This document shows positions 18,089 through 36,887 of a DNA stretch of 37,306 nucleotides, piece by piece. The stretch lies in NCBI RefSeq assembly GCF_000620125.1, contig NZ_JHVL01000037.1, forward strand, positions 1 through 37,306, read 5' to 3'. The notes beneath the pieces were generated by a model. The model ran no database searches. It was not told the DNA's origin and saw only the letters and a list, made by a program, of their open reading frames with translations. Source of the stretch: Clostridiisalibacter paucivorans DSM 22131 (GTDB taxonomy: Bacteria > Bacillota > Clostridia > Tissierellales > Clostridiisalibacteraceae). Within the stretch, counting starts at the first letter, position 1. Each line of letters starts with the position of its first letter. The position numbers and the translations under genes were made by a program.

Positions 18089-18844
18089 ATGAAGTTAGTT
18101 TCATGGAATGTAAATGGTCTTAGAGCCTGTGTTAGAAAGGGATTTTTGGAATACTTTAATGAAGTGGATGCGGATATATTTTGTGTTCAAGAGACGAAAT
18201 TACAAGAAGGGCAGATAGAATTGGAACTGGATGGATATCATCAGTATTGGAACTATGCAGTTAAAAAAGGATACTCTGGAACTGCTGTATTTACAAAGAA
18301 AAAACCTTTATCTGTTACATATGGAGTGGGAGTGGAAGAACATGAGCAGGAAGGTAGAGTAATAACTTTAGAATTTGAAGAATTTTACTTAGTAAATGTA
18401 TATACTCCCAATAGTCAGAGAGGATTGGCGAGACTGGATTATAGGATGGATTGGGAAGATGTATTTAGGGCATATTTAAAGGAATTAGATAGTAAGAAAC
18501 CAGTAATATTATGTGGAGATTTAAATGTGGCACATAAAGAAATAGATTTAAAAAATCCTAAAAATAATAAAAAGAATGCAGGGTTTAGTGATGAAGAAAG
18601 GGAGAAGATGACAAAACTTTTATCATCAGGATTTATAGATACCTTTAGATATTTTTATCCTGAAAAAGAAGAAGTATATACATGGTGGTCATATATGAGA
18701 AAGGCCAGAGAACGGAATTCTGGATGGAGAATTGATTATTTTATAGTATCTGAAAGTTTAAAGGACAAGTTAATAGATGCAGAGATTCATTCAGAGGTTA
18801 TGGGAAGCGATCATTGTCCAGTAGTATTAAAGGTTAACAGTTAG
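18089..18844 (+). CDS. xth: Exodeoxyribonuclease III (AP endonuclease family)
   Basis: 251 residues from ATG 18089, with GGAGG ten bases upstream; the ATG at 18074 would bury that site. The catalytic blocks are all visible: SWNVNGLRAC (N7), FCVQETKLQ (E35), VNVYTPNSQRGLARLDYRMDW, LCGDLNVAHKEIDLKNPKNN, TWWSYMRKARERNSGWRIDYFI, and the ending GSDHCPVVLKV with its catalytic Asp-His. It cuts DNA at abasic sites and removes 3' blocking groups in base excision repair. Its last codons and stop (GTT AAC AGT TAG) lie inside a copy of the dispersed palindrome that also forms its terminator. Confidence 0.96.
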   Translation: MKLVSWNVNGLRACVRKGFLEYFNEVDADIFCVQETKLQEGQIELELDGYHQYWNYAVKKGYSGTAVFTKKKPLSVTYGVGVEEHEQEGRVITLEFEEFYLVNVYTPNSQRGLARLDYRMDWEDVFRAYLKELDSKKPVILCGDLNVAHKEIDLKNPKNNKKNAGFSDEEREKMTKLLSSGFIDTFRYFYPEKEEVYTWWSYMRKARERNSGWRIDYFIVSESLKDKLIDAEIHSEVMGSDHCPVVLKVNS

Positions 18845-20646: not shown

Positions 20647-20671
20647 GTTTATAAGAACAAAATATAAGAAA

Positions 20672-20770
20672 TCTGATCACATGACTGGCGGAAGTGGAAT
20701 TAACCACATGGAGTGTGATGCTAAATATATGCCGACCGCCTGGGCAATAAAGTCCAGGCGGTTATTTTTT
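20672..20770 (+). promoter_or_regulatory. ZTP (pfl-motif) riboswitch with terminator
   Basis: The conserved parts of the ZTP/ZMP riboswitch are all seen. P1 is ATCACA (20676-20681) with TGTGAT (20714-20719), followed inside by GACTGGCGGA. P2 is GTGG-AATTAA-CCAC (20694-20707), followed by ATGGAG. The diagnostic GCCGACCGCCTGGGCA is at 20731-20746. Its CCGCCTGG then pairs with CCAGGCGG (20754-20761) and a T run, forming an intrinsic terminator. ZTP, which signals shortage of 10-formyl-tetrahydrofolate, would stop termination and turn on formate production by the downstream pfl genes. Confidence 0.93.
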
Positions 20771-28090: not shown

Positions 28091-28175
28091 GTTAGTAGCT
28101 GGTAGTTAGTAGTTGATGGTGGAAATTCTGTGGATTTCAGTATTTAAGAAACTAATTACTGGCTACTAATTTTTT
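28091..28175. repeat. Dispersed palindromic repeat, copy 5, between converging genes
   Basis: Left arm TTAGTAGCTGGTAGTTAGTAG and right arm ACTAATTACTGGCTACTAA pair imperfectly around the core GATGGTGGAAATTCTGTGGATTTC, then six T. The right arm contains the last codons and TAG stop (28152) of the minus-strand MATE gene. Confidence 0.8.
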
Positions 28176-29501
28176 ATTGGTAATTATCAATTTTTTTAAT
28201 ATCAAAAAGGACATTATTAGACAGATAATTTCTGAAACTGTTGTGGAGAGCCAGATACCTTTAGCTCCCCAAATATGGGTCATAAAATATAGGGACCCAG
28301 TTATTATGACTAATCCCCGTCCCAGAGATATAATCGTAGCCCTCAAGGGCCTTTCAATTGATGCAAAGAATCCTGATATATTGACATTGAATCCTACAAA
28401 TAAAAATGAAATAGAGAATACTCTAAAGACCTTTATAGAATAATAAAACAACTCTTTATTACTATTGTCTATAAATATAGATACTATTGATTCTGTAAAT
28501 AGCATTACAAATGCAAAGGTGGCTAGAGATACTATAGTTATAGTTTTGAAACTCATCTTAAATAATTTCAATACCAATTTTTTATCGTCTTTACCGTAGT
28601 AATAGCTAGACAGCGGTTGCATGCCTTGAGTAATCCCTATCATTGTATTTAAAACTAATATATTTATATAGGATACTATACTATAGGCAATTACGCCATG
28701 TTCTCCTATATATGTGAGTATTGTGTGGTTAAATAGGAAAATAACAATACCTGATGATAACTCTGTAATGCAGTCAGGAAATCCTGTAAGTAGAATCCTT
28801 TTAAAAATAGAAAAATCGAATTTAAATTTTACAAAATTAAGTCTGGAATTTTTCTTTATAAAATGAACTATATAAAATATACTCCCTGCCAATTGAGATA
28901 TGCCTGTGGCATATGCTGCTCCTGATATACCATATCCTAATCTTATAACAAATATATAGTCTAAAACTATATTCATGATAGCAGAGATGGATACCCCTAT
29001 GATTGCAAAATGAGGGAAACCATCGGTTTTCACTATAACTTCTAAAGAATATGAGATAATAAAAAAACCATTGAATAAGACTATTATTTTCATATAATCC
29101 TTTATATAAGGAAAGGTAGCCTTTGTAGCACCTAAAAATAAAATCAACTTATCCAAATTCAAAATACTTATTATAAGTATACTTAAAGAAACTATAATTA
29201 TAGTAACCATATGTTGAGTAAAAATCTTATTGGATTTATCAATATTATTTTTGCCTAAATATATGGCTATCAGGGTAGATGCTCCTGTAGATAATAATAA
29301 AGAAATGGCAAATATAAAACTGATAAATGGCATGGACATATTTATGGCAGCCAAAGCAGTTGGCCCTACTCCTCTACTTACAAATATACCATCAACTATT
29401 GTATATAATGAAAATATCCACATAGCTGATATAGATGGTAAAAGATATTTGATAAATTTTTTTCTAATATTTTTACTAGATTCTTTTTTTATTGTATTCA
29501 T
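28152..29501 (-). CDS. MATE family efflux transporter (second copy, MerR-controlled)
   Basis: 449 residues, twelve helices. The N-terminus LLPSISAMWIFSLYTIVDGIFVSRGVGPTALAAINMSMPFISF and the second half LTGFPDCITELSSGIVIFLFNHTIL then IVSYINILVLNTMIGITQGMQPLSSYYYGK are of the MepA/NorM-like clostridial type with two MatE repeats. The start ATG 29501 has AGGTG upstream. Its promoter has the 19-base spacer of MerR-activated genes, and a BmrR-like gene is divergent, so it is most likely a drug pump switched on by its own substrates. Its C-terminal LVASN and stop come from a repeat element. Confidence 0.93.
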   Translation of the reverse strand: MNTIKKESSKNIRKKFIKYLLPSISAMWIFSLYTIVDGIFVSRGVGPTALAAINMSMPFISFIFAISLLLSTGASTLIAIYLGKNNIDKSNKIFTQHMVTIIIVSLSILIISILNLDKLILFLGATKATFPYIKDYMKIIVLFNGFFIISYSLEVIVKTDGFPHFAIIGVSISAIMNIVLDYIFVIRLGYGISGAAYATGISQLAGSIFYIVHFIKKNSRLNFVKFKFDFSIFKRILLTGFPDCITELSSGIVIFLFNHTILTYIGEHGVIAYSIVSYINILVLNTMIGITQGMQPLSSYYYGKDDKKLVLKLFKMSFKTITIVSLATFAFVMLFTESIVSIFIDNSNKELFYYSIKVFRVFSISFLFVGFNVNISGFFASIERPLRATIISLGRGLVIITGSLYFMTHIWGAKGIWLSTTVSEIICLIMSFLILKKLIITNKKLVASN

Positions 29502-29523
29502 TTAGCAACACCTCTATAATAAG

Positions 29524-29554
29524 ATTATAAACCTTAGTATTATACTAAGGTCAA
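29524..29554 (-). promoter_or_regulatory. MerR-type promoter of the second MATE gene
   Basis: On the minus strand TTGACC (29549-29554), exactly 19 bases, TATAAT (29524-29529). The spacer holds the dyad ACCTTAGTA-N3-TACTAAGGT (29531-29551). A long spacer with a central dyad is the signature of promoters that MerR-family activators untwist. Confidence 0.9.
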
Positions 29555-29559
29555 GGATT

Positions 29560-29663
29560 ATAGTTGGTAGTCGGTAGTATTTAGTAGAAATTCTATGAAT
29601 TTCTTTTTATAATAATAAAAAAGCGTAAGGATTTTTACCATTAACTAAGAACTAAGAACTAAA
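29560..29663. repeat. Dispersed palindromic repeat, copy 6 (diverged)
   Basis: TAGTTGGTAGTCGGTAG, then TAGTAGAAATTCTATGAATTTC as core, and later TTAACTAAGAACTAAGAACTAA as the weak opposite arm. It separates the MATE promoter from merR and forms the merR leader. Confidence 0.6.
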
Positions 29664-29676
29664 ACAGGAGGAATTT

Positions 29677-30489
29677 ATGAAAGATTATTTCAAAATAGGA
29701 GAGATATCTAAGATATATGGGATAGGTAGGGATTCCTTAAGATATTATGAAAAGATAGGTATATTAAACCCTGATAGGGATACTAATGGATATAGGATGT
29801 ATAGTATGCAGGATATATGGAAGCTTAATATAGTGAAAGACTTGAGGAGCTTAGATTTTCCTATGCACATTATAAAGGAATATTTAGACAATAGAAATCT
29901 ATGTTCTACCAAAGGGCTATTAACTGAAGAAATAAAAATATTGGATAACAAGATAAAGGAATTGAACAATCTAAAAAACAATATTTATCAAAGATTAAAA
30001 AGGATTGAAATCACTATAAAAAGCAATAATTTTTATAATATTGAAATATTATTTTTCAAAGAACGAAGGGCATTTGAGCTAAATGGTGATATATCTAGAG
30101 ATGAGGAGGTAGATTTCCTCATCAAAAAGCTTCAGAAAAAACATAAAGACAAATTCTATTTATTGGGAAATAATAGCATAGGGGCTAGAGTATCCATGGA
30201 AAAAATAAATGAGGGATTTTTCAATTATTTTGAATCGGTATTTGTGCTATTGGAAAATGCTACTATTGATTATGATATGGTGTTAGAAGAAGGTGATTAC
30301 GTTACTTTATCGTATAAAGGGACATATGAACAGAGTCAGGAATATATACCTAAGATGATGGAGTTTATAGAGAAGAATAATTATGAAATCATAGGGAGTC
30401 CTATTGAAATATATAAGATAGATGTGCATGAGACAAGTGATGTAGAAGAGTTTATTACAGAGATACAAATACCTGTGGTAAAGTGTTAA
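29677..30489 (+). CDS. MerR-family regulator with GyrI-like effector domain (BmrR-like)
   Basis: 270 residues with CAGGAGG before the ATG. The MerR winged helix covers 1-70 (YFKIGEISKIYGIGRDSLRYYEKIGILNPDRDTNGYRMYSMQDI), and a dimer coiled coil 80-115. A GyrI-like domain (about 125-268) ends IEKNNYEIIGSPIEIYKIDVHETSDVEEFITEIQIPV, the usual effector-pocket end. It lacks the Cys or His metal sites of metal-sensing MerR proteins, so it should bind large organic cations like BmrR. It faces the second MATE gene, whose promoter carries the matching 19-base spacer. Confidence 0.94.
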   Translation: MKDYFKIGEISKIYGIGRDSLRYYEKIGILNPDRDTNGYRMYSMQDIWKLNIVKDLRSLDFPMHIIKEYLDNRNLCSTKGLLTEEIKILDNKIKELNNLKNNIYQRLKRIEITIKSNNFYNIEILFFKERRAFELNGDISRDEEVDFLIKKLQKKHKDKFYLLGNNSIGARVSMEKINEGFFNYFESVFVLLENATIDYDMVLEEGDYVTLSYKGTYEQSQEYIPKMMEFIEKNNYEIIGSPIEIYKIDVHETSDVEEFITEIQIPVVKC

Positions 30490-30519: not shown

Positions 30520-30547
30520 TTGACAATATTTATTGTAATGGTATAAT
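30520..30547 (+). promoter_or_regulatory. Promoter of the cobalamin uptake operon
   Basis: TTGACA (30520-30525), 16 bases, TATAAT (30542-30547): both hexamers are consensus. The riboswitch begins about 40 bases downstream. Confidence 0.85.
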
Positions 30548-30587
30548 CTAAGTTACAAGAGCGAATGTGATATAAAATTAAATATAA

Positions 30588-30785
30588 GATTTAGGTTTTT
30601 ATATGAATGATATAGAATTAAAAGGGAATCAGGTGAAAATCCTGAACGGTCCGGCCACTGTAAATGGGGAGGATTTCTTCAATATGCCACTGGATAACAC
30701 TGGGAAGGAGAAGAAAATCTTATGAACCATAAGTCAGGAGACCTGCCTAAATTGTGAGCACAACCTTCCGGTAGAGGTATAATAC
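30588..30785 (+). promoter_or_regulatory. Cobalamin (adenosylcobalamin-type) riboswitch
   Basis: Conserved blocks appear in order: GATTTAGG, TTAAAAGGGAATCAGGTG, AAATCCTGAACGGTCCGGCC then ACTGTAAA, TGCCACTGG, ACTGGGAAGG, and the B12 box AAGTCAGGAGACCTGCC (30731-30747). The loop CAACCTTCCGGTAGAGG follows as the kissing arm. Bound cobalamin would allow the terminator at 30797 to form and turn off the uptake genes. Confidence 0.95.
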
Positions 30786-30794
30786 GATTTTTGT

Positions 30795-30835
30795 AAAAAA
30801 GTCTTAACTTTATCGAAGTTAAGACTTTTATTTAT
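30795..30835 (+). terminator. Riboswitch expression-platform terminator
   Basis: AAAAGTCTTAACTT, loop TATCG, AAGTTAAGACTTTT, then T-rich sequence. It lies directly after the cobalamin aptamer and ends transcription before the first gene when B12 is plentiful. The 90 bases to the first ATG/GTG show only the ribosome site GAGGGGG. Confidence 0.9.
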
Positions 30836-30924
30836 ATAATTTTAAAATACAATATTGATAATAGAATAGTGAATATATTGTGTTTTGTGCATTAGTATTT
30901 ATAAAATTGTGAGGGGGAAAACAA

Positions 30925-32583
30925 GTGAATAGACTAATTAAAATAAGTATTAGTACTTTATTGATAGTGATGATGTTATTGAGTATGGTTCCATTAGCAT
31001 TGGCAACAAGCACAACTGAGCTTTCTGATGCTGTTACAGATACTGCAAAGTATATGTATAAGACAGTAAAGTCTCCACAAGTGGGTTCTATTGGCGGCGA
31101 ATGGGCGGTATTGGGTCTTGCAAGAAGTGGATATGAAGTACCTGATGAATATTATCAAAAATACTATGAGACTGTAGAGGATTATGTAAGGGCCTGTAAA
31201 GGTGTTTTGCATGAGAAGAAGTATACAGAATATTCTAGGTTGATAGTTGCACTTACATCCATAGGTAAAGATCCTTCACATGTAGCAGGATACAACCTTT
31301 TAACACCCCTTGGAGATTATGAAAAAACCATCTGGCAAGGGATGAATGGTCCTATTTGGGCACTTATTGCCTTAGATAGTGGAAACTATCCTATGCCACA
31401 AAATCCAGACGCTAAAATACAAGCAACTAGAGATATGTATATTAATAGAATTTTAGAGTCTCAGCTATCCGATGGTGGATGGTCACTTTTTGGAGGAACA
31501 AAAGCAGAAACTCCAGGGCATAGTGTTTCTGATCCTGATATCACAGGTATGGCCCTTCAGGCATTGGCAAAATATCAAGATAGACCAGAGGTAAAAAAGG
31601 CTAGTGAAGAAGCACTTGCATGTATGTCTAAGATGCAAAATAGCAAAGGGGGCTTTTCCAGTTGGGGTACAGCTAATTCTGAAAGTTGTGTGCAGATGAT
31701 TGTGGCTTTGTCCGAGTTAGGAATTCCTCTAGATGATGAGCGTTTTATAAAAAATGATAGAACAATGTTAGACAACCTAATGACTTTTTATATTAAAGGC
31801 AAAGGTTTTCTCCATACTCAAAGCGGAAGCGGTTCTAATCAAATGGCATCAGAACAAGGCTTTTATGGGCTTATTGCGGCTCAGAGAGCATTAAATGGTG
31901 AAAGTAGTCTTTATCGTATGGATGATGCGCTGAATATTGGAGAAAAAGATAGTAAGACCGTTAGCTTTGGACTTGTGGGTAAACATCCAGATGTAAATAC
32001 TCCAAAGGTAATAAAGACGGGAAAAACCTTTAGTGATATACAGGCACATGATGATCAGCCTGCCATTGAAGCCCTTGCATCAAGGGGAATTATCAATGGA
32101 AAGTCTAATGATAGATTTGATCCCAATGGGGAGATGACAAGGGGAGAGTTTGCCACCATTGTAGTTAAGGCCCTGGGACTTGTTCCGAAAGCAAATAATA
32201 ATTTTGCTGATATAAAAGGTAGTGATTGGTATTCAGACTTTGTAGGCACAGCAAATACCTATGGCATTGTTTCTGGTAAAGGGGATGGTACTTTCGATCC
32301 AAATAGTACAATTACCCGTGAAGAAGCAGCAACAATGGTTGCAAAAGCAGCAAAACTTTGTGGGATGAATACAGAGTATAATACTATGTCAACAAGAGAT
32401 GTCCTTGCTCAGTTTCCAGACTATATAAAATCCAGTGATTGGGCAATGAGTTCCCTTGCTTTTTGTTATGATAAAGAAATTCTAGATCCATCTGATATGA
32501 AGATATTACCTAAAGAATCCATAAAACGTTGTGAGATTGCACAGATGCTGTTTAATATGCTAGGTAGTTCTAAACTCCTTTAA
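30925..32583 (+). CDS. Exported alpha/alpha-barrel (transcobalamin barrel-like) protein with SLH domains
   Basis: 552 residues from the GTG at 30925 with GAGGGGG upstream. A signal peptide (1-28, hydrophobic core LLIVMMLLSMVPLALA) is followed by a prenyltransferase/squalene-cyclase-like alpha/alpha barrel (about 30-340) with repeat blocks SQLSDGGWSLFGG (179-191) and MQNSKGGFSSWG (237-248). Then come SLH repeats at about 369-420 and 427-480 (NGKSNDRFDPNGEMTRGEFA, GKGDGTFDPNSTITREEAA) and a degenerate third (495-548). SLH repeats bind cell-wall polymers. The same barrel fold forms the N-terminal domain of animal transcobalamin. With the B12 riboswitch, a corrinoid-binding surface protein is the best reading; binding is inferred. 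Confidence 0.85.
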   Translation: MNRLIKISISTLLIVMMLLSMVPLALATSTTELSDAVTDTAKYMYKTVKSPQVGSIGGEWAVLGLARSGYEVPDEYYQKYYETVEDYVRACKGVLHEKKYTEYSRLIVALTSIGKDPSHVAGYNLLTPLGDYEKTIWQGMNGPIWALIALDSGNYPMPQNPDAKIQATRDMYINRILESQLSDGGWSLFGGTKAETPGHSVSDPDITGMALQALAKYQDRPEVKKASEEALACMSKMQNSKGGFSSWGTANSESCVQMIVALSELGIPLDDERFIKNDRTMLDNLMTFYIKGKGFLHTQSGSGSNQMASEQGFYGLIAAQRALNGESSLYRMDDALNIGEKDSKTVSFGLVGKHPDVNTPKVIKTGKTFSDIQAHDDQPAIEALASRGIINGKSNDRFDPNGEMTRGEFATIVVKALGLVPKANNNFADIKGSDWYSDFVGTANTYGIVSGKGDGTFDPNSTITREEAATMVAKAAKLCGMNTEYNTMSTRDVLAQFPDYIKSSDWAMSSLAFCYDKEILDPSDMKILPKESIKRCEIAQMLFNMLGSSKLL

Positions 32584-32596
32584 GGAGGTAATTCAA

Positions 32597-33364
32597 ATGA
32601 AATTAAGTAAAAATAAAATTATTGTTGGCATTGTAATATTAGCTGTACTTGCAATAACCTTTTGGTGGGGAGGAAATGCACCGGGATTACAGGGGTGGAA
32701 TATTGAGGGTTTAAAAACTCGCCCTGGTGGTATTGATGATAAGCTGACTGCAGAAGAAAAGATGGAACTTGCTAAGGAGTTGGCGGGGGAGTCCTCGCCG
32801 GGAGTGGAAAAAGGTGATGAAGATTACTCTTCAGTCAAGGGAATGCAAATTGATCAAAGTACAGGAAAGGATAAATACCTTACAGATCCCGTACCTGAAG
32901 GAAAGCCTGTACCCATAGAACCCCAAAATGTGGAAATTACCGACAATGAACTTACATGCACCTTGTCAGTACGGTGTGACACAATTTTAGATAATATAGA
33001 TTGGCTTGACCCAGAAAAGATTGAACTTGTACCAGAGGATGGAGTAATCTTTAAAAAACAGACAGTTACCTTTTATGAGGGGGAAAGTGTGTTCAATTTA
33101 CTCCTTCGTGAAATGAAGCAAAATCAAATCCACATGGAGTTTGTGAATACTCCCATGTATAATAGTGCCTATATTGAAGGCATAAATAACCTTTATGAGT
33201 TTGATTGTGGCGAGCTATCCGGTTGGATGTATAAAGTAAATGGATGGTTTCCTAACTATGGTTGTAGCCGTTATCAATTAAAAGAAGGGGATGTTGTGGA
33301 ATGGGTATATACCTGTAATTTAGGTATAGATGTAGATGGCTATTCTGCACTGGGAGATGACTAA
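32597..33364 (+). CDS. DUF4430 (transcobalamin beta-domain-like) membrane-anchored protein
   Basis: 255 residues with AAGGAGG before the ATG. A single hydrophobic stretch (8-24, IIVGIVILAVLAITFWW) anchors or exports it, with no lipobox cysteine. A charged linker (40-110) leads to a beta region, and the DUF4430 domain at about 155-242 holds VTFYEGESVFNLLLREM, CGELSGWMYKVNGWFPN and YQLKEGDVVEWVYTC. This domain equals the C-terminal beta domain of transcobalamin and intrinsic factor, which closes over the corrinoid. Two cysteine pairs (121/127, 204/223) may form disulfides. It follows the barrel protein by 13 bases and overlaps ecfT by one base. Confidence 0.88.
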   Translation: MKLSKNKIIVGIVILAVLAITFWWGGNAPGLQGWNIEGLKTRPGGIDDKLTAEEKMELAKELAGESSPGVEKGDEDYSSVKGMQIDQSTGKDKYLTDPVPEGKPVPIEPQNVEITDNELTCTLSVRCDTILDNIDWLDPEKIELVPEDGVIFKKQTVTFYEGESVFNLLLREMKQNQIHMEFVNTPMYNSAYIEGINNLYEFDCGELSGWMYKVNGWFPNYGCSRYQLKEGDVVEWVYTCNLGIDVDGYSALGDD

Positions 33365-34254
33365 TGAATAGTGCCTTTGCAGGATACCATCCAACTATAA
33401 ACTTTCTATACTTTACTTTGGTATTCTTGTGTTCCATGTTTTTTATGCATCCCGTTAGCCTTTTTATTTCCTTTGTTTGCGCATTTTCTTATTCTGTGGT
33501 ACTTCGGAGAAAAAGAGCAGTAAAGTTTAATATATTATATTTATTACCTATGATGCTTATGGCTGCACTTATAAATCCTGCTTTTAACCATGAGGGTGCT
33601 ACCATACTTGCATATTTAGATAGTGGGAATCCCCTTACATTGGAATCCATTACCTACGGCATCGCAGCGGCAGTAATGCTTGCTTCTGTGGTATCGTGGT
33701 TTTCCTGTTACAATGTAATTATGACCTCGGATAAGTTTATATATTTATTTGGCAGTGTAATTCCTGCGTTGTCCCTTATTTTATCTATGGCCCTTCGCTT
33801 TGTCCCGAAATTTAAGGCTCACATTAAGATTGTTTCTAATGCACAAAAATGTGTGGGACGAGATGTATCAAACGGAAGTATTTTACAAAGGGCAAAGAAT
33901 GGTATTAAAATTTTATCTATTATGATTACGTGGGCGTTGGAAAATGCCATTGAAACAGCGGATTCTATGAAGACTCGTGGTTATGGACTTTCTGGCCGTA
34001 CAGCTTTTTCTATCTATCGCTTTGATAGGAGAGATAAAAAAGCCCTTTTAGTAATAGGAGGTACAGGAGCATATGTACTTTTAGGTGCTTTTTTTGGAGG
34101 GATGTATTTCCGCTATTTTCCCAGTATGAAAAGCGTATCTCTTACTCCCTTTTCCACAAGTGTATTTGCAGCCTATTTCATATTAAGTATTTCACCTATA
34201 GTTATAGAAAGATGGGAGGATAGAAAATGGAAGGAATTACAGTCAAAGATTTAA
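33364..34254 (+). CDS. ECF transporter transmembrane component EcfT (CbiQ family)
   Basis: 296 residues. The ATG overlaps the previous stop (TAATG). Membrane helices are seen near 12-35, 57-75, 92-112, 125-150, 223-245 and 260-280. The coupling helix segment MITWALENAIETADSMKTRGYGLSG contains the family's A-x-x-x-RGYG signature, which contacts the ATPases. It joins the substrate-binding S component to the two EcfA domains in the next protein. Cobalamin as substrate is inferred from the riboswitch and neighbours. The stop lies 28 bases inside the next gene. Confidence 0.92.
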   Translation: MNSAFAGYHPTINFLYFTLVFLCSMFFMHPVSLFISFVCAFSYSVVLRRKRAVKFNILYLLPMMLMAALINPAFNHEGATILAYLDSGNPLTLESITYGIAAAVMLASVVSWFSCYNVIMTSDKFIYLFGSVIPALSLILSMALRFVPKFKAHIKIVSNAQKCVGRDVSNGSILQRAKNGIKILSIMITWALENAIETADSMKTRGYGLSGRTAFSIYRFDRRDKKALLVIGGTGAYVLLGAFFGGMYFRYFPSMKSVSLTPFSTSVFAAYFILSISPIVIERWEDRKWKELQSKI

Positions 34255-36887
34255 CTTTTACCTACCCTAAACAAAGAAATGCTGCACTTAAAAGTATTTT
34301 TCTTTCAGTAAATCAGGGAGAATTTGTAACATTGTGTGGGAAGTCAGGTTGTGGGAAATCTACTTTGCTTCGACATTTTCGTTCTACCCTTATGCCCCAT
34401 GGCAAAAGAGAGGGAGCAGTTTACTTTGGCAATAAACAGATAGATCAATTAAGCCAGAGAGAACAAACAGAAAAAATTGGCTTTGTTCATCAATCTCCTG
34501 ATAATCAGATAGTAACAGATAAGGTATGGCATGAACTTGCCTTTGGTCTTGAGAGTCTTGGCTATAGTACCTCTGAAATTAGAGGTAGGGTATCGGAAAT
34601 GGCATCATTTTTTGGGATACAGACTTGGTTTCACAAAAAGGTAACGGAACTTTCAGGGGGACAAAAACAATTACTCAATCTAGCTTCTATTATGGCGATG
34701 CAACCCTCTGTGCTGGTTTTAGATGAGCCTACCAGTCAACTTGATCCTATTGCAGCAACAGATTTTTTAGAAACTATAAAGAAGATAAATCGTGAGTTAG
34801 GCACTACTATTATTCTTGTAGAACATCGTTTAGAAGATGCAATGCCCCTCTCTGATCGTGTTATTGTTATGGATAATGGGGATATTATTGTGGATGATAC
34901 CCCAAGTATGGTGGGAGAAAAGCTAAAAGAATTTAACCATGATATGTTTGTGGCCATGCCTACACCTATGCGTATCTATGGAAAAGTAGACAATGATTTA
35001 ACTTGTCCCATTACTGTCCGTGATGGACGGCACTGGATTACTGAATTTGCAAAGAATAGACCTCTTAATAAAGATGCTATTCCAAAGGATTGTAAGACTG
35101 ATTTATCTAACCCTATAATTGAAATGGACGAAGTTTGGTTTCGATATGAAAGGGAGTTGCCAGATGTAGTCAAGGGTCTGTCTATTACTATTAATAAAGG
35201 GGAATTGTTTGCCATAGTAGGGGGGAATGGCACGGGAAAAACTACAAGTCTGTCCATTATGAGTGGAATACTTAAGCCCTATCGTGGAACTGTAAATATA
35301 AATGGAAATTTGGGTGCCCTTCCACAGAATCCCCAGGCATTGTTTGTAAAGAAAACTGTAGAACTTGATTTATACGAGATGTTTTCTGGAAGAAAAATTC
35401 CTAGAGATGAACAAGAAAGACGTATTATGGCAGTATCAGAACTTTGTGAGCTTACAGATTTACTTCATATGCATCCCTATGATTTGTCGGGAGGAGAACA
35501 GCAGAGGGCAGCCCTTGCAAAGGTATTGTTAATGACCCCGAAAATTCTTCTATTGGACGAACCTACTAAGGGACTTGATGGACATTTCAAAGAAAAACTA
35601 GGGGATATATTAAGAAGACTACAAAAAGATGGTGTTACCATTATTATGGTGTCTCATGATATTGAGTTTTGTGCAAGTTATGCTACCCGTTGTGCCATGT
35701 TTTTTGATGGAAACATTACAAGTATTGGTACACCAAGAACATTTTTTGGAGGTAAGAACTTCTATACTACTGCTACAAATCGGATGGCAAGAACGGTGTT
35801 ACCAGAGGCAATTATTCCTGAAGATGTTATTCTCGCTTGTGGCGGTAAGATACAATCTAAAAAACATTTATCAAAAGAATATGATGAAGATGGCTTGTTT
35901 TCTGAGACAAATATAAAAAAAATAGACAATAATGATAAAGTAAGTCCAAAGAGTTCTTATAGCTCACATTTTTGCTTTACACCTGTACGTATTTCTATAT
36001 CTGTTTTATGTCTTTTGGCATTTATTTTAACTACTGTGTTTTTGTGGGGAAAATATACGGATTGGAGAGATTATATTGTACAGCTTATCCTTGTATTGGA
36101 ACTTGCAGTAGGTCTTGCTGTTATTATGCCAGGGAAAGATTTAGATATGCCTGATTTCTCAGTACAGGTACCCAAGGAAAAACGGATATTGTCTAAAAGA
36201 ACCATTGTGGCCATGGCTACGGTACTTCTTGCTGCACCTTTGACCATATATATTGGTGTGTATTTTTTAGGAGATAAAAAATACTATTTTATAAGTCTAT
36301 TGATAATATTAGAAACTATCTTGCCTTTTGCCTTTATATTTGAGAGTAGAAAACCCCAGGCAAGGGAGCTTGTCATCATAGCTGTGCTTTGTGCTATTGG
36401 TGTGGCTGGGAGAGCTGCTTTTTTTATGCTTCCTCAATTTAAACCTGTGGTGGCTGTGGTGATTATATCGGGGGTATGTTTTGGTGGTGAAACTGGCTTT
36501 TTGGTAGGTGCCGTTACTGCATTTACCTCAAATATGCTCTTTGGACAAGGTACATGGACCCCATGGCAGATGTTTGCTTTTGGTATTACAGGTTTTATTG
36601 CAGGTATATTGTTTCGAAAGGGATTCCTTAGGAAAAAACGAAGTTCTCTTTGCATTTTTGGTGCACTGACTACATTTTTTATATGTGGATTTGTTTTGGA
36701 TACGGGGGCAGCACTAATGTGGCAAGCGAATCCTACATTAGAAAGTATGATTACCTATTATTTGATGGGCATCCCCTTTAATATAATTCATGCTGCGGCT
36801 ACAACTTTTTTCCTTTGGTTTGGTGCAGAACCTATGATTGAAAAACTTGATCGCATTAAAATTAAGTATGGGCTTGTGGAAATTTAA
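34227..36887 (+). CDS. EcfA-EcfA-S fusion: two ATPase domains plus ECF S component
   Basis: 886 residues with GGGAGG before the ATG. ATPase 1 (1-245): GKSGCGKST (38-46), LSGGQKQLL (142-150), VLVLDEPTSQLD (162-173), VEHR. ATPase 2 (296-505): GGNGTGKTT (332-340), LSGGEQQRAALAK (420-432), LLLDEPTKGLD (441-451), VSHD. A charged linker (515-582) precedes four membrane helices (585-605, 617-634, 658-680, 687-705). The S component (713-870) then follows, with GRAAFFMLPQFKPVVAVVIISG, GETGFLVGAVTAFTSNMLFGQGTWTPWQM and FNIIHAAATTFFLW. Separate subunits in most ECF systems are thus joined in one chain. It should import cobalamin or a precursor with the upstream EcfT and capture proteins. Confidence 0.92.
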   Translation: MEGITVKDLTFTYPKQRNAALKSIFLSVNQGEFVTLCGKSGCGKSTLLRHFRSTLMPHGKREGAVYFGNKQIDQLSQREQTEKIGFVHQSPDNQIVTDKVWHELAFGLESLGYSTSEIRGRVSEMASFFGIQTWFHKKVTELSGGQKQLLNLASIMAMQPSVLVLDEPTSQLDPIAATDFLETIKKINRELGTTIILVEHRLEDAMPLSDRVIVMDNGDIIVDDTPSMVGEKLKEFNHDMFVAMPTPMRIYGKVDNDLTCPITVRDGRHWITEFAKNRPLNKDAIPKDCKTDLSNPIIEMDEVWFRYERELPDVVKGLSITINKGELFAIVGGNGTGKTTSLSIMSGILKPYRGTVNINGNLGALPQNPQALFVKKTVELDLYEMFSGRKIPRDEQERRIMAVSELCELTDLLHMHPYDLSGGEQQRAALAKVLLMTPKILLLDEPTKGLDGHFKEKLGDILRRLQKDGVTIIMVSHDIEFCASYATRCAMFFDGNITSIGTPRTFFGGKNFYTTATNRMARTVLPEAIIPEDVILACGGKIQSKKHLSKEYDEDGLFSETNIKKIDNNDKVSPKSSYSSHFCFTPVRISISVLCLLAFILTTVFLWGKYTDWRDYIVQLILVLELAVGLAVIMPGKDLDMPDFSVQVPKEKRILSKRTIVAMATVLLAAPLTIYIGVYFLGDKKYYFISLLIILETILPFAFIFESRKPQARELVIIAVLCAIGVAGRAAFFMLPQFKPVVAVVIISGVCFGGETGFLVGAVTAFTSNMLFGQGTWTPWQMFAFGITGFIAGILFRKGFLRKKRSSLCIFGALTTFFICGFVLDTGAALMWQANPTLESMITYYLMGIPFNIIHAAATTFFLWFGAEPMIEKLDRIKIKYGLVEI

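Follow-up and report, generated by a model that had tools for sequence, protein, structure and literature searches.

An operon in Clostridiisalibacter paucivorans combining a cobalamin riboswitch, separate toroid and transcobalamin beta-domain-like proteins predicted to lie at the surface and a CbrT-like ECF importer

Layout of the locus

The window considered here, which is the whole stretch of 37,306 nucleotides that was analysed (positions 1 to 37,306 of contig NZ_JHVL01000037.1 of Clostridiisalibacter paucivorans DSM 22131), carries at 30520-36887 an operon of four genes headed by a cobalamin riboswitch, and this operon very probably serves the uptake of cobalamin (vitamin B12, hereafter B12) or other corrinoids. 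Genes 1 and 2 encode two putative surface proteins, and genes 3 and 4 encode an importer of the energy-coupling factor (ECF) type, in which the substrate-specific component (S-component) is fused to both ATPases. The features are as follows:

30520..30547, + strand: promoter TTGACA-16-TATAAT with TG before the second hexamer (12/12 consensus match only)
30576..30764, + strand: cobalamin riboswitch aptamer, RF00174 (122.3 bits, E 2e-30)
30797..30829, + strand: intrinsic terminator between the aptamer and gene 1 (15-pair stem)
30925..32583, + strand: gene 1, probably secreted alpha/alpha-toroid protein with C-terminal SLH domains (GTG start, 552 residues)
about 31012-31929, + strand: toroid of gene 1 (predicted structure; weak in Pfam)
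about 32023-32577, + strand: SLH domains of gene 1 (predicted structure, Pfam)
32597..33364, + strand: gene 2, membrane-anchored DUF4430 protein, transcobalamin beta-domain-like (255 residues)
33364..34254, + strand: gene 3, EcfT (CbiQ-like) transmembrane subunit (296 residues, PF02361 E 7.3e-8)
34227..36887, + strand: gene 4, EcfA-EcfA'-S fusion (886 residues; two ABC_tran stretches and ECF S-component families)
36294..36884, + strand: S-component domain of gene 4, CbrT-like (6fnp_A match by phmmer and by profile)

The aptamer match is complete over model positions 1-189 and far exceeds the Rfam gathering score of 31.5, and the terminator (-16.3 kcal/mol) has a z score of -5.9 against shuffled sequences; for the promoter, it should be kept in mind that 3.1 promoter-like sites, weaker ones included, are expected by chance in such a region. 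The genes are tightly packed, with a gap of 13 bp between genes 1 and 2 and overlaps of 1 bp between genes 2 and 3 and of 28 bp between genes 3 and 4. The original prediction, made from the window alone, had described a cobalamin riboswitch and terminator ahead of four close-set genes; the aptamer score, the terminator statistics and the matched gene families bear this out, and the independent placements of reading frames, aptamer, promoter and terminator agree with its coordinates. The gene order is well beyond chance, since it recurs in many genera.

The importer

The complete engine of an ECF importer is present: EcfA and EcfA' are seen as the two ABC_tran stretches of gene 4, with TIGR04520 reaching 355 bits where its cut-off is 315, and EcfT is identified by the CbiQ family PF02361, which scores over its cut-off. 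Gene 4 contains extra hydrophobic segments before the S domain, with peaks from residue 589. The S domain itself matches 6fnp_A with an E-value of 6e-10 as a single sequence (phmmer) and 1.8e-19 as a profile, the next chain having an E-value of 0.003, and the S-component of a second such operon in the same genome matches CbrT at 6.5e-14. The entry 6FNP is ECF-CbrT, for which import of both cobalamin and cobinamide has been demonstrated (PMC5997447).

The CbiQ and CbiO annotations of such genes suggest a different cargo, namely cobalt ions taken up by a CbiMNQO-like system, and both the match of EcfT to the CbiQ family and the occurrence of cobalt importers behind cobalamin riboswitches (PMC11477304) fit with this possibility. 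It is nevertheless extremely unlikely, because the S domain resembles CbrT and matches ECF S-component families, while the CbiQ equivalog model TIGR02454 scores only 13 bits, far below its cut-off of 112; the CbiM family, moreover, is absent from the best 25 of the 47 families for gene 4. Cobalt import was therefore rejected.

The DUF4430 protein and the toroid protein

The product of gene 2 consists of an N-terminal hydrophobic helix (residues 5-25), a linker, and a DUF4430 domain encoded at 33080-33313 (PF14478, Pfam E 5.2e-18). When its predicted model (predicted local distance difference test, pLDDT, 89.6) is compared with solved structures, the best 17 chains returned by Foldseek for the DUF4430 domain all belong to transcobalamin, intrinsic factor or haptocorrin, among them 5np4, the isolated human transcobalamin beta domain with cyanocobalamin. 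Structural alignment likewise ranks 14 entries of these three carriers first, with Z scores of 11.6-13.3, followed by the bacterial structure 3u7z (Z 11.1) and by other beta-grasp folds at Z 7.4 or less. The model also contains a helix (165-175) followed by a hairpin (strands 180-185 and 190-196), and a hairpin in this position is the mark of the transcobalamin-like clade of SLBB domains named in PMC1796856. At the level of sequence, the profile of the DUF4430 domain alone gives a weak link to transcobalamin (5no0, E 0.004), and full-length profiles give none. The protein is likely to contact the ligand.

The product of gene 1 begins with a signal-like N-terminus and ends in SLH domains (Pfam E 3.4e-33) whose match to 3pyw (Z 21.9) indicates the fold that binds pyruvylated wall polymer, the anchoring itself being predicted. 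The toroid between them gives a weak Pfam match (SQHop_cyclase_C, E 0.004, under the cut-off), but the predicted model (pLDDT 91.7) shows it clearly. Its nearest solved folds in VIA-align are squalene-hopene and related cyclases (2sqc, Z 23.0), followed by sugar epimerases and hydrolases, which raises the possibility that the toroid is an enzyme, either a cyclase or a protein active on glycans, rather than half of a ligand-binding site. This possibility is very unlikely, since the cyclase motif DxDD occurs in the toroid part of just 3 of 58 relatives, and since both the regulation of the gene and the partner to which its relatives are fused are linked to B12.

Association with cobalamin riboswitches in other genomes

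The association was measured on 100 DUF4430 clusters from 63 further genomes of the class, picked by DUF4430 only; the scan used 145 matches outside the host genome, and all counts are among the matches listed. In 53 of the 100 clusters a same-strand RF00174 element is located upstream of the nearest DUF4430 match at a distance of at most 10 kb, where 0.53 would be expected by chance. If the 5 of 126 riboswitch matches which fall under the Rfam cut-off are excluded, the association drops from 53 to 51 clusters and from 46 to 44 of the 63 genomes. An element on the opposite strand only was found within 10 kb of 2 clusters. Viewed in reverse, 54 of the 126 cobalamin riboswitch matches have a DUF4430 match within 10 kb downstream. 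When the clusters are divided by type, a cobalamin riboswitch lies within 12.5 kb of 23/40 ECF-type clusters (22/40 strictly, because the riboswitch at L043 belongs to a neighbouring surface gene on the opposite strand), 28/42 surface-type clusters, and 4/18 clusters that are small or solo.

The case in which such operons stand mainly behind riboswitches for another ligand was also considered and rejected. Rfam was run on 16 loci, comprising L043 and 15 of the 17 ECF-type clusters lacking a cobalamin riboswitch (all except L057 and L073); the only riboswitches it returned were cobalamin elements belonging to neighbouring genes, in L029 and L043, and one flavin mononucleotide element, and in the 15 clusters no other riboswitch occupies a controlling position. 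The flavin mononucleotide element, in L043, is cut off from the operon by opposite-strand genes.

Among the small clusters, DUF4430 proteins of 128-164 residues are encoded directly before a solo S-component-like gene at L111, L115, L117, L118 and L119, with a cobalamin riboswitch just upstream at L111 and L118. The solo S protein of L117, the sole one checked, has no relative in the PDB, so that a minimal CbrT system was not borne out. One genome of the draw (G079, 4.0 Mb) contains 16 cobalamin riboswitch matches, 14 of them above the family cut-off.

Split and fused forms

The arrangement of the window, in which a toroid-only gene and then a DUF4430-only gene directly precede EcfT, is found in 18 of 44 EcfT records from the class draw and the host's own loci, and in 42 of 62 records from 80 named loci, which were picked by likeness to gene 2 and whose architecture counts are therefore biased. 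The two sets share four EcfT genes. Two of the 44 records are from the host genome. One (L050) is a duplicate that arises where stretches overlap, and L058_10, which resembles a cut copy of L059_2, is probably another; no repeat is among the 18 records in split order. A fused toroid-DUF4430 gene directly precedes EcfT in 3/44 records (one of them in the host genome, at L017) and 1/62. Fusions in the domain order of transcobalamin are found in this position at L187, L041 and L056.

The clearest of these is L187, from a metagenome-assembled genome (MAG) of the Gracilibacteraceae, in which the toroid and DUF4430 domains, encoded by two reading frames in the window, form one lipoprotein-like chain of 539 residues before EcfT. 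Its toroid shares 56% identity with gene 1 across 333 aligned columns, its DUF4430 part shares 73% identity with gene 2 across 165, and its operon stands behind a cobalamin riboswitch (52.7 bits). The fusion of two neighbours in another genome is classic evidence that both act together, and the description of the pair in the original prediction as a transcobalamin split in two is supported by this natural fusion of close relatives with the domain order of transcobalamin and the same position in the operon. As regards the further claim that the alpha/alpha barrel and DUF4430 correspond to the two halves of transcobalamin, the part concerning the beta domain stands on the fold comparison above, while the solved folds nearest to the toroid are others than transcobalamin.

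It is conceivable that the two proteins never form one site, and that the DUF4430 protein alone catches B12 for the S-component while the toroid-SLH protein has another ligand or keeps a store of corrinoids at the wall. In favour of such independent binding, the isolated human beta domain of 5np4 was solved with its ligand in the absence of the toroid, and a DUF4430-only gene lies directly upstream of EcfT in 34/44 and 56/62 records, of which only 18 and 42 have a toroid-only gene before it. The natural fusions directly before EcfT, and the recurrence of the gene order in the named loci, in Clostridia-type and Paenibacillus hosts alike, make this alternative unlikely. That the proteins of genes 1 and 2 share one site is, by a small degree, the more probable state of affairs.

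Other loci of the host genome

The genome contains 12 cobalamin riboswitches, and all five DUF4430 matches found in it (5/5) lie in riboswitch loci, four in number. One of these, L017 (G000:C13:57400-68000), is the second cobalamin-riboswitch ECF operon, with a separate CbrT-like S-component and with surface proteins comprising a lipoprotein-like DUF4430 protein, a toroid-SLH protein, and a toroid-DUF4430-SLH protein of 1006 residues. Besides the operon of the window and L017, the remaining two loci encode surface proteins that range from 727 to 2242 residues and in which DUF4430, toroid, Big_2 and SLH domains are variously mixed.

Further observations concern individual riboswitches of this genome. 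Locus L016 (G000:C44) has near-identical tandem cobalamin riboswitches at locus positions 18104-18277 and 18423-18596, followed by a 544-residue protein with no Pfam match at E 0.01 and by a 1916-residue SLH protein; a third riboswitch stands upstream of a 210-residue open reading frame and the 2242-residue Big_2/toroid/DUF4430/SLH protein. At L009 (7977-10364), nrdD, which encodes an anaerobic ribonucleoside-triphosphate reductase, lies behind a cobalamin riboswitch, as is expected if a B12-dependent isozyme exists. At L014 (4839-11063) a cobalamin riboswitch is followed by a NikA-like ATP-binding cassette (ABC) importer, with a gene that by eye is methyltransferase-like before it.

Distribution

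A scan with the gene 2 alignment confirmed at least 581 relatives of gene 2. The best 80 of these are from Clostridia-type or Paenibacillus hosts or from unassigned Bacillota or bacterial MAGs, and the named hosts include Flavonifractor plautii, Sporobacter termitidis, Lutispora thermophila, Fusibacter paucivorans and several Paenibacillus. The cassette is thus widespread, yet it is patchy within its own order, because gene 2 is matched at E 1e-10 in 11 of the 60 genomes drawn, that of the host among them.

Proposed function and cargo

That the ligand belongs to the B12 class, as was originally predicted, is supported by the riboswitch and its statistics, by the kinship of the S domain to CbrT, and by the transcobalamin beta-domain fold of DUF4430. 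On balance, the operon probably equips a Gram-positive cell with a dedicated system for the uptake of cobalamin (corrinoids), in which the toroid and beta-grasp halves clamp B12 and pass it to the CbrT-like S domain. Cobalamin riboswitches sense the finished cofactor, and under off-switch behaviour the terminator would remain unformed when adenosylcobalamin is scarce, so that the operon would be read. The product of gene 1 would be exported and anchored to the wall through its SLH domains, while that of gene 2 would sit in the membrane on its N-terminal helix and a flexible linker. The toroid and the beta-grasp domain would each contribute half of a binding site of the transcobalamin type; B12, once captured at the wall, would be clamped between the two proteins and handed over to the S domain of gene 4, and EcfT with the two fused EcfA ATPases would power import. 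The strictest version of this scheme, a true two-piece transcobalamin whose site exists only where the wall protein meets the membrane protein, so that B12 is trapped at the gap between wall and membrane and then given to the S-component, is offered tentatively, the chances being somewhat on the side of its being wrong.

Several observations weigh against the proposed scheme. Transcobalamin is absent among the best 50 VIA-align rows for the toroid of gene 1, and in a Foldseek search with gene 1 its highest-ranked entry is number 19 in the list (E 3.7e-4); judged from the predicted model, the toroid fold is generic, and its kinship to transcobalamin is at the level of the fold only. No toroid was detected in 8 of the 40 ECF-type clusters, although the domain labels derive from iterated hidden Markov models seeded by proteins of the window and the host genome, which may miss diverged toroids. 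In 17 of the 40 there is no cobalamin riboswitch within 12.5 kb; a contig edge lies at most 216 bases upstream in 6 of these and within 1.2 kb in 3 more, and the remaining 8 have at least 8.8 kb of upstream sequence, so that the lack of a riboswitch is unexplained by a contig edge. Of the seven loci from named strains that were scanned with Rfam, five contain one to three cobalamin riboswitches each, and two (L136 and L175) contain none in the available stretch at E-values up to 1. ECF-CbrT, furthermore, imports B12 in liposomes without any helper (PMC5997447), and by analogy the surface proteins may therefore not be strictly needed for import. Finally, the gene content of the genome includes cbiC, cobQ, cbiB, cobU, cobS, cbiA-type, cbiD and cobT genes for B12 synthesis.

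The genome carries a B12 synthesis operon, and from this gene content the host is probably a producer of B12, for which uptake would be salvage and not necessity. A 172-residue membrane protein that by eye resembles an ECF S-component is encoded inside that operon (L011, 3766-4284).

The presence of late steps able to finish cobinamide (cobU, cobS, cobT) is compatible with a variant in which the cargo is an incomplete or different corrinoid, such as cobinamide or other cobamides, and the operon serves the salvage of precursors; CbrT carries cobinamide too (PMC5997447). This variant must be regarded as doubtful: no result of the present analysis tells corrinoids apart, and the riboswitch reports need, not cargo.

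Neighbouring features of the window

Just upstream of the operon, at 28152-30489, an open reading frame resembling a multidrug exporter by eye and a divergent MerR/GyrI-like regulator form an ordinary efflux pair. A ZMP/ZTP riboswitch at 20671-20752 (60.7 bits) precedes a 757-residue reading frame that by eye is pyruvate formate-lyase-like, which is an ordinary pairing.

Comparison with known systems

Systems of this kind have been predicted before: Burroughs et al. 2007 (PMC1796856) proposed that bacterial surface proteins combining SLBB domains with a toroid, encoded in operons with CbiO and CbiQ, are likely to scavenge B12, and also mentioned stand-alone SLBB domains. The operon described here resembles those systems in its beta-grasp domain with a hairpin insert, toroid partner, surface location, CbiO/CbiQ-type genes and predicted role in B12 scavenging. 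It differs from them in that the toroid and the SLBB-like domain are separate proteins with different anchors (SLH domains as opposed to a membrane helix), and in its cobalamin riboswitch control and CbrT-like S-component. Moreover, by the account of that study its bacteria usually lack key B12 synthesis genes, whereas the present host has B12 synthesis genes. The available passages of PMC1796856 describe no pair of toroid-SLH and DUF4430 proteins, no riboswitch and no link to CbrT. The present analysis contributes the link to CbrT, the statistics on riboswitches, the recurrence of the split cassette as a unit, and the natural fusion. Among the titles listed in searches of the open-licence literature, no experimental study of these bacterial proteins was found, and among the papers listed there was, BtuF-type binding proteins aside, no demonstrated wall-level B12 catcher of Gram-positive bacteria.

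The importer is like ECF-CbrT of Lactobacillus delbrueckii (PMC5997447) in its related S-component and in its engine of EcfA, EcfA' and EcfT, and unlike it in that the engine is dedicated, the S-component is fused to both ATPases and extracellular proteins are encoded in the operon, while ECF-CbrT imports alone. In ECF importers the S-component itself is described as the binding protein (PMC5997447), so that a two-piece site, if it is real, would supply an extracellular binding partner for this importer class. The principle that a surface protein captures B12 for an importer is shared with BtuG and BtuH of Bacteroides (PMC8941943, PMC6143338), where the present system is a Gram-positive one of the ECF type; the B12-binding domain of BtuH has no known structural homologs (PMC8941943).

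The likeness to animal transcobalamin, intrinsic factor and haptocorrin lies in the fold of the beta domain (Z 11.6-13.3) and in the partnership with an alpha/alpha toroid. The animal proteins are one chain, whereas the window encodes two, with a kinship of the toroid at fold level only. The L187 fusion and the split pair bear on the proposal that animal transcobalamin originated in bacteria, and if the two-piece site is real, the split form would be a common bacterial cousin of the fused protein that has been proposed as the source of the animal B12 carriers.

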